DNA from: Candidatus Nomurabacteria bacterium RIFCSPLOWO2_01_FULL_39_18
Lineage (GTDB): Bacteria > Patescibacteriota > Minisyncoccia > Phycocordibacterales > UBA9973
DNA length: 40,859 nt
Direction: 5' to 3'
NCBI GenBank assembly: GCA_001787005.1
Contig: MFUV01000004.1
Coordinates: 64,911-105,769, forward strand
Shown: positions 6,067 to 8,190 of the stretch, one piece after another
Layout of the letters: the number at the start of each line of letters is the position of its first letter
How positions within the stretch are numbered: the stretch's first letter is position 1
Program-made: the position numbers and the translations under genes
Notes under the pieces: generated by a model
Told to the model about the DNA's origin: nothing
The model's database searches: none
The model's input: only the letters and a program-made list of their open reading frames with translations

Positions 6067-8190
6067 CTAAAGCATTCTTAAAAATTCTTTTTCATCTATT
6101 ACTTTCACTCCTAATTTCTGCGCCGTGGTAAATTTAGAACCGGGGTCGACACCTGCCACCACATAGGAAGTATTTTTAGAGACGGAGCCTACCACTTTGC
6201 CACCCAGAGCAATTATTTTCTCTTTAGCAATCTCTCGAGACATGCCCGAGAGCGTACCGGTTAAAACAAATGTCTGACCTGTAAACTTTCCTTTTTTTCT
6301 CCTTTCCGCTTTTTGTACACTTACGCCATTCTTTTGCAATTTCTTTATAAAACTCAAATTATTTTCATCGCTAAAAAAGTCATGCAGACTTTTTGAAACT
6401 GCCGGGCCTATATTTTCTATACTATCTATTTGCGTTAGGTCTTGCCTAGCGCAAAGCACTAATTTTTCCAACGTTCCAAAATGCTCCGCCAAATCTCGCG
6501 CTGTTTCCTCGCCCACATGAAGTATTCCAAGCGCCCAAAGGAACTTGGAGAGCGGAATTTTCTTTTTGTTTTTTATTTCTTGGATGATATTCTCGGCTGA
6601 CTTTTCTCCGAATCGCTCGAGTGGGGCAATATCTTCTTCTTCTAATGTAAAAATGTCTGCCGCGTCGGTAATCAAACCTTCGTCTTTAAATCGCCTTAAA
6701 ATTTTAGGTCCGAGTTCGTATATCTCAAACACGGAAACAAAGTGTTCTAAATATCTTTCATTTTTGGCAGGACACTTCGGATTGGCGCAATAATGAGCGA
6801 CAGAGAGACCACCCCTTTTATCCCCTCCTTCATAAGGCGGGGAGGATTTCGCCCCCTCCTTGTGGAGGAGGGGGCTGGGGGTAGTGATTTTTTTCTCTAC
6901 TTTTCCCCCGCATACAGGACAAAACTCCGGCATCTTAAATTTTTTTTCTTTACCCGTACGCAAGCGAGTCAGCACTTCCACAACTTTTGGAATAACATCT
7001 CCCGCTTTTTCTATGACGACAGTATCCCCTATTTTCAAATCAAGGCGGTTTATTTGATCCATGTTATGGAGAGTCGCTTTGGACACTAGAGAACCTGCGA
7101 CCTGTGTCGGCTTAAAAATTGCAAGCGGGGTCAAGACACCAGTCCGTCCAACATTCACCAAAATTTTCTTTACTATGGTCGTCGATCTTTCAGCTGGATA
7201 TTTAAAAGCAACTACATATCTCGGCGCCTTGCCGACAACACCTAAAATTTCCTGCAATTTTAAATTGTTTACTGATATCACAATGCCATCCGTACCGTAA
7301 GGAAAACTGGGTCTTATTTTTTCAAATTTCTTTATAAAAGCTATAACTTCCTCTAGACTTACGCATTTAGCTTCTAGCTTTTCAATTTTAAAACCAAGCT
7401 GGCGAAGCATTTCATGTTTATTAGAATGGAACTGAGGGGAGGCAAGACCTAACGCGTTAGGTCTTGCCTCCTTAATTCCCACTAGATCGTACGCAATAAA
7501 ATCCAAATGTCTATCTGCGACCAACTGCGGATCAAGTTGTCGCAGACTTCCCGCGGCAACATTTCTAGTGTTGGCAAAGAGTGGCTTGCCTTCCTTTCCA
7601 TTCTGCAGGTTTAATTTTGCCAATGTGGTCTTCCCCATTAGCGCTTCGCCACGAACTTCCAGAGATTCTGGAAAGGGTTTTTGCAGTATAAGCGGAATCG
7701 AATTTATAGTTTTGAGATTTTGGGTAATATCTTCCCCAACAAACCCATCTCCGCGGGTTGCGCCGCGAATAAATTCCCCTTTTTCATAAATCAATGACAC
7801 CGCAAGACCATCAAATTTGACTTCACAGAAGTAATTCACCTCACCCCCCTGCCCCTCTCCTTGTAAAGGAGAGGGGGGTAGGAGTTTTTTTATTCTTTTT
7901 TCCCAATCATAAAGCTCTTCATAAGAAAAAGCGTCATTCAAAGAAAGCATCCTGCTTTTGTGCCTGACTTTGACAAATTTGTCGAGTGGCTTACCTGCTA
8001 CCCTGTGTTCGGGCGCATTGACATCCTCAAATTCTGGATATTTCTGCACTAATATCTCAAGTTCGCGGGTTAGAGATTCATAAACATCTGGAGTAACACC
8101 CTCCTTATTTTCTATGTGATATGCGTTTCTTAGTCGCGCGATTTCATTTCGCAACTTTTTTATTCTTTTTTGAACTTCTGCTTCTTTCAT
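6067..8190 (-). CDS. ligA: NAD-dependent DNA ligase LigA
   Basis: [17 protein letters not shown] (adenylation motif), [13 protein letters not shown], zinc finger CPVCGG...CANPKCPAK, HhH region, C-terminal BRCT. Start taken at MKEAEVQKR (8190); the ORF track start at 8226 overlaps the upstream gene. Confidence 0.95.
6821..6874. repeat. double-hairpin palindromic insert inside ligA zinc-finger region
   Basis: CCCCCTCCT-tgtgg-AGGAGGGGG (6852-6874) preceded by TCCCCTCCTT-cata-AGGCGGGGA; encodes [25 protein letters not shown]. Confidence 0.85.
7438..7471. repeat. perfect 34-nt palindrome inside ligA
   Basis: GGAGGCAAGACCTAACG/CGTTAGGTCTTGCCTCC; encodes [12 protein letters not shown]. Confidence 0.95.
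7852..7876. repeat. palindromic hairpin inside ligA (11-bp arms, 3-nt loop)
   Basis: CCCCTCTCCTT-gta-AAGGAGAGGGG; encodes PSPLQGEG. Confidence 0.9.

Follow-up and report, generated by a model that had tools for sequence, protein, structure and literature searches.

Palindromic repeats of several families, inserted in frame at recurrent sites of LigA and other conserved genes of Candidatus Nomurabacteria

The DNA ligase gene of a Candidatus Nomurabacteria genome contains four short palindromic inserts. They are probably copies of several short palindromic repeat families spreading in Nomurabacteria, of which the copies that fall in frame in loops survive and are translated, at sites that are repeatedly refilled. 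The gene lies in the window, a stretch of 40,859 nucleotides on contig 4 (MFUV01000004.1, positions 64,911 to 105,769) of the 813-kb source genome.

The ligA gene and its inserts

The gene ligA, encoding the NAD-dependent DNA ligase, occupies positions 6070-8190 on the minus strand and specifies 707 amino acids from the ATG at 8190; the open frame extends beyond this codon up to a TTG at 8226. Judged from its sequence, ligA is complete: Pfam recognizes adenylation, OB, HhH, and BRCT domains, and the alignment of the product with E. coli LigA 2OWO runs from one end to the other (E 4e-145). The named LigA relatives closest to it are mostly from Candidatus Nomurabacteria.

An earlier note on this DNA had described three palindromes in ligA, all in frame, and all are present. 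The F4 element (7438-7471, minus strand) is a perfect 34-nt palindrome with 17-bp arms and encodes 12 aa. The F1 element (7836-7884, minus strand) encodes about 13 aa that precede the catalytic Lys of KFDG by a few residues; it consists of a hairpin at 7852-7876, with 11-bp arms and a 3-nt loop, and of a ACCTCACC flank which is common to other F1 copies. The F2 double element (6802-6879, minus strand) comprises two adjacent C-rich hairpins within 6822-6873 and encodes about 25 aa. It is correct that this last insert splits the zinc finger between its cysteine pairs, as it sits between Cys424/427 and Cys468/473 (ATG numbering), and of the finger only the second half gives a match to the Pfam ZBD profile. 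In relatives, the element is missing from this site or other families take its place. The peptides given for the inserts also agree with the translation.

A fourth insert had been overlooked. It is a decayed F4-type hairpin, TTGCGTTAGGTCTTGCCTAGCGCAA (6430-6454, minus strand), which encodes approximately CARQDLTQ in the HhH region and has a 16-nt core (7440-7455) in common with the 34-nt palindrome. LigA is here 3 aa longer than 2OWO, and a cleaner hairpin is kept at the same codons in many relatives.

A chance origin of the ligA hairpins is excluded, because Markov sequence matched in composition contained one hairpin of such strength in 141 kb, versus three in the 2.2 kb of ligA. With about 27 in-gene elements, counted by hand, in the approximately 400 kb of coding sequence sampled, the Poisson probability of at least four elements in ligA, uncorrected for the choice of gene, is 1.7e-5.

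The modelling of the inserts, proposed in the earlier note, was carried out with AlphaFold. The mean pLDDT, obtained with 29 aligned LigAs, was 80.9, and values below 50 occurred only at residues 110-114 (F1), 241-248 (F4), and 439-462 (F2); thus, the three inserts are predicted as flexible loops, where such a pLDDT denotes low confidence rather than a demonstration of disorder and the occurrence of each insert in few relatives lowers the confidence by itself.

LigA inserts across the genus

The presence of three inserts in one gene had been regarded as striking; it proves to be no isolated oddity and represents the state of the whole genus. In 70 same-genus LigAs, inserts concentrate after residues 119, 184, 255, and 457 of the TTG-numbered frame (S119, S184, S255, and S457), with a small fifth site at approximately 593. 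At least one insert of at least 8 aa is carried by 50 of the 70 proteins and none by the remaining 20. The same site may hold C-rich elements, AAGGTC..GACCTT elements, or long branched hairpins in different species, or it may be empty. Alignment of the relatives reveals clean presence or absence of the inserts, as the earlier note had anticipated, and its refuting case, in which all relatives carry the same peptides as conserved LigA segments, does not hold.

Insert segments of 4-15 aa are enriched in hairpins compared with control windows of the same genes, while the longest inserts form branched folds and score lower on a simple hairpin scan. When the inserts are mapped on a tree built from the core columns of LigA, their presence and their family at S119, S184, and S457 change as often as shuffled labels. 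S255 is the sole site at which families display a slight phylogenetic signal, with slightly fewer changes than shuffled labels. The family labels derive from sequence patterns chosen by the analyst, and family counts are therefore approximate. Turnover is evident even between close relatives: L075 and L079, whose LigA cores are 95% identical, carry different elements at S184, and S255 is empty in one and filled in the other. Two LigAs with a common AAGGTC-type element at S457 display a synonymous, compensated change in the arms. At site 593 of L061, an element is nested within an older palindromic element (ARQ-PARNVTQRDSGG-DLAE).

Repeat families in the source genome and in other genes

Counts by stretch cover 54% of the source genome (436 kb) and are supplemented by whole-genome searches. 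The 436 kb contain nine copies of F1, six of F2, and nine of the F4 core. The search for the ligA palindromes proposed in the earlier note did find further copies, in recR, dus, and elsewhere. The F1 hairpin occurs in nine exact copies in the whole source genome and in none of 145 other phylum genomes sampled; a search of plasmids gave one weak partial match. Within LigA, F1 is read in two frames. A second copy of the F4 palindrome (84%) lies in recR, and F4 cores are present also in purL-like and comEC-like genes. The dus gene harbors two elements and topA at least two. All six sampled F2 copies lie inside open frames of at least 150 codons, and a family bearing stop codons, which serves as a natural control, is exclusively intergenic in the sample. 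No target-site duplication was identified.

Other repeats were observed in the window. A perfect palindrome, GCCTGCCTGCGCAGGCAGGC (2862-2881), lies within a TerC/DUF475 gene (2514-3446), and elsewhere in the genome, at L198:15867-15888, the same 20-mer recurs inside a gene for a class II tRNA synthetase. A 43-nt near-perfect palindrome, CCACATGTCGGACATAGGGG... (14622-14664), spans the junction of a T2SSF-like and a T2SSE-like gene; related CATGTCGGACATG repeats are found in topA and at L194:17022. Tandem 9-nt repeats of a CCTGTAGCT-like type occupy 39681-39761.

LigA is not a unique target, a possibility which was considered and rejected: TopA and LepA follow the same insert pattern at a lower density, with 0.16 occupied sites per 100 aa per species each, versus 0.25 in LigA. 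Such elements were found also in UvrD, UvrB, PolA, KsgA, RNase R, LeuRS (leuS), and cysteine desulfurase, proteins named from conserved motifs in alignments rather than by family search. In these proteins, different families often occupy one site in different species, and empty sites are seen in sister genomes where relatives hold elements.

Proposed mechanism and the role of RAYT transposases

According to the preferred explanation, short palindromic repeats of several families would spread through Nomurabacteria genomes, and the survivors would be in-frame, stop-free copies in exposed loops of essential proteins, translated as flexible linkers. At the few tolerant sites of each gene, the loss of elements and their replacement by unrelated families would outpace the divergence of species. 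Judging by the open frames, the inserts are probably translated, and they appear to be nearly neutral. Mobility would act on single-stranded hairpin DNA through an enzyme working in trans, for which IS200-like/RAYT proteins are the obvious candidate. Template switching may keep the arms complementary; indeed, perfect but divergent arms are the outcome expected of template switching between inverted repeats, a process described in E. coli and yeast (PMC7202029, PMC8604942).

A narrower version of this explanation, with which it is compatible, would take the inserts to be strict-sense REP elements, moved by the RAYT (Y1_Tnp) transposases of the genome; it is considered possible, although doubtful. 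The source genome (G000) has 13 Y1_Tnp genes, and 55 of 80 same-genus genomes have such genes. Matching palindromes lie on both sides of five of the seven RAYT genes checked in the source genome, and none of F1, F2, and F4 was found in 400 kb of a same-genus genome devoid of RAYT genes, whose intergenic hairpins mostly look like ordinary terminators. By eye, a RAYT-flanking palindrome, TAGCAAGGACAGTCCTTGCTA, resembles the hairpins of relatives at LigA site 593 (TCAGCAAGGATGGTCCTTGCTGA), and the palindrome GGACATCCGATGTCC, which adjoins the same RAYT gene, recurs in the S184 insert of L045. Conversely, F1, F2, F4, and the C-element (described below) flank none of 21 distinct RAYT loci, which carry other palindromes or none; a RAYT link for the ligA families was sought at these loci and not found. 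The GTAG tag is absent within 8 nt of the nine F1 copies and likewise of the F4 copies. LigA inserts occur also in several genomes in which no RAYT was detected. The sole F4 copy near a RAYT gene is that in recR, about 670 bp away. Across genomes, RAYT count and LigA insert length are weakly correlated (Spearman 0.30, p 0.013, not corrected for phylogeny).

RAYT-type genes at L183:13533-14303, L190:7630-8355, and L185:12192-12925 are each flanked by matching palindromes whose sequence is specific to the gene. At L195:3801-3825, a RAYT-adjacent palindrome, AACTTGGACATCCGATGTCCAAGTT, equals half of the insert at LigA site 184 in L045, and a RAYT link is possible for that family.

The C-element

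The C-element is a family related to the ligA inserts, with a conserved core, GGTCCTCGG...CCAGACC. In the source genome it is located in uvrD and ksgA, and it is present in 10 of the 70 LigAs. The motif GGTCCTCGG...CCAGAC was found in 54 of 80 same-genus genomes, none of which contained its reversed control; a stricter form is present in only 2 of 382 phylum genomes, both from the same family. Among 66 distinct copies are 47 within frames of at least 200 codons, and these use five of the six reading frames; therefore, the nucleotide sequence is conserved and not the peptide.

Beyond the core lies a stem of about 20 bp. Its sequence shows no relation between most copies, and its two sides are complementary inside each copy, with a median complementarity score of 12.5 versus 4 when partners are swapped. 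The few similar stems belong mainly to LigA orthologues. Changes on both sides were observed at 17 of 20 stem pairs (25 copies), the covariation score is 0.462 versus 0.138 +/- 0.014 in shuffled and at most 0.225 in slid alignments, and RNAalifold, unprompted, returned nearly the same structure.

These compensated changes, together with a conserved core that includes unpaired positions and with copies both within and between genes, could indicate that the structured inserts, above all the C-element, are kept for a function at the RNA level, such as a regulatory or processing hairpin of the mRNA, the peptide being a side effect. Such a function is nevertheless unlikely. Among the 47 in-gene copies, 15 are antisense to the gene, the position of the element relative to genes varies, and it is missing at the same site in sister species. 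No insert matched an Rfam family above threshold, where the search returned tRNAs only. Furthermore, template switching likewise preserves arm complementarity.

As concerns the origin of the arms, G057 has a clean empty site, compared with G056, in which both arms of the C-element are absent; the arms therefore came with the element. The idea that the element copies flanking host DNA as an inverted duplication was dropped on the same evidence. No long match indicating arms copied from elsewhere was present in a half-genome sample, and only ordinary genes, with no autonomous partner, were seen adjoining C-elements. At one intergenic point, two sister genomes hold different structured elements and a third is empty. 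Sites are reused outside genes too: at the same intergenic point beside an FtsK-like gene (L310, L305, and L345, the orthologue in G057), two species have a C-element and a third has C-rich hairpins. It is tentatively proposed that the C-element may typify a class of Nomurabacteria mobile elements defined by fold, in which the GGTCCTCGG...CCAGACC core is joined to a self-complementary stem, about 20 bp long and peculiar to each copy, is read in five frames, is replaced at fixed sites, and is moved by a putative hairpin-recognizing enzyme.

Less probable explanations

The repeated occupation of a small set of loops in an essential enzyme might suggest that the peptides are adaptive, under selection at the protein level. 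This is very improbable, since the reading frame of one family varies from site to site, a single site can hold unrelated peptides, similar inserts are found in unrelated genes, and 20 of the 70 LigAs do without any insert of at least 8 aa. It is just as hard to believe that splicing or ribosomal bypass takes the inserts out before translation or in its course, although many are strong hairpins and one lies between zinc-binding cysteines: the frames are open in all 70 LigAs, which would be needless for a removed element, and the stop-bearing family keeps to intergenic DNA in the sample. An assembly artefact, which palindromes are able to provoke, can practically be dismissed, as equivalent inserts with open frames recur in dozens of genomes assembled separately in different projects.

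Significance and comparison with known systems

Examples of selfish DNA that adds sequence to proteins previously came mostly from Rickettsia and from scattered cases of intragenic REPs. The preferred explanation, the spread of several palindromic repeat families, would make it pervasive in a lineage with reduced genomes, whose dozens of sequenced species offer natural before-and-after pairs at the same LigA, TopA, and UvrD loops; in such pairs, the way in which inserted DNA becomes tolerated protein is directly testable. It would also account for odd peptides in Patescibacteria, which can mislead annotation and structure prediction, and the genomes of these ultra-small uncultured bacteria would represent a rich natural record of mobile DNA becoming protein.

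The earlier note had likened the inserts to the palindromic elements of Rickettsia (RPEs). The likeness holds for their behavior, which is shared also with the Wolbachia palindromic elements: they are palindromic repeats with several families and several copies per genome, which enter conserved genes in frame, at solvent-exposed regions or predicted flexible loops, and show clean presence or absence. It fails for their construction. RPEs are units of 100-150 bp with a conserved peptide (PMC10969869, PMC3767692), whereas the present elements measure 25-110 nt (25-52 nt for the hairpins of the window ligA), are built differently, and conserve a nucleotide sequence with no conserved peptide, a single family being read in several frames (two for F1, five for the C-element). 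Orthologues with RPE-4, RPE-6, or RPE-7 may also differ in the group found near a given place (PMC10969869, PMC3767692), but replacement at a site is faster here, the stems of the C-element are private to each locus, and the hosts are Patescibacteria. Judged by the published descriptions of RPEs, the ligA elements are not RPEs.

Intragenic REPs of the RAYT-REP type (GTAG and CGTC super-families) are likewise short palindromes in genomes with RAYT genes, and some lie in DNA replication and repair genes, including the DNA ligase of Opitutus terrae (PMC3733652). They differ in that no GTAG tag was found within 8 nt of the F1 hairpin, that none of the 21 RAYT loci is flanked by the ligA families, and that the intragenic placement, an exception there, is common here. 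Membership in either the RPE or the REP class is not claimed, because a conserved peptide and RAYT flanks of the same family were not found. In the mitochondrial genes of Nematomorpha, inverted repeats likewise lie inside coding sequence; they differ in being long and perfect with both arms coding, and are not described as multi-family repeats having a conserved core (PMC6649704).

Searches combining Nomurabacteria or Patescibacteria with palindromic elements or RAYT, in literature outside subscription, gave no prior description. As far as this literature shows, what is new with respect to the systems described so far is the host group, the speed at which elements replace one another at fixed sites throughout a genus, and the C-element, whose compensated stems are private to each locus.
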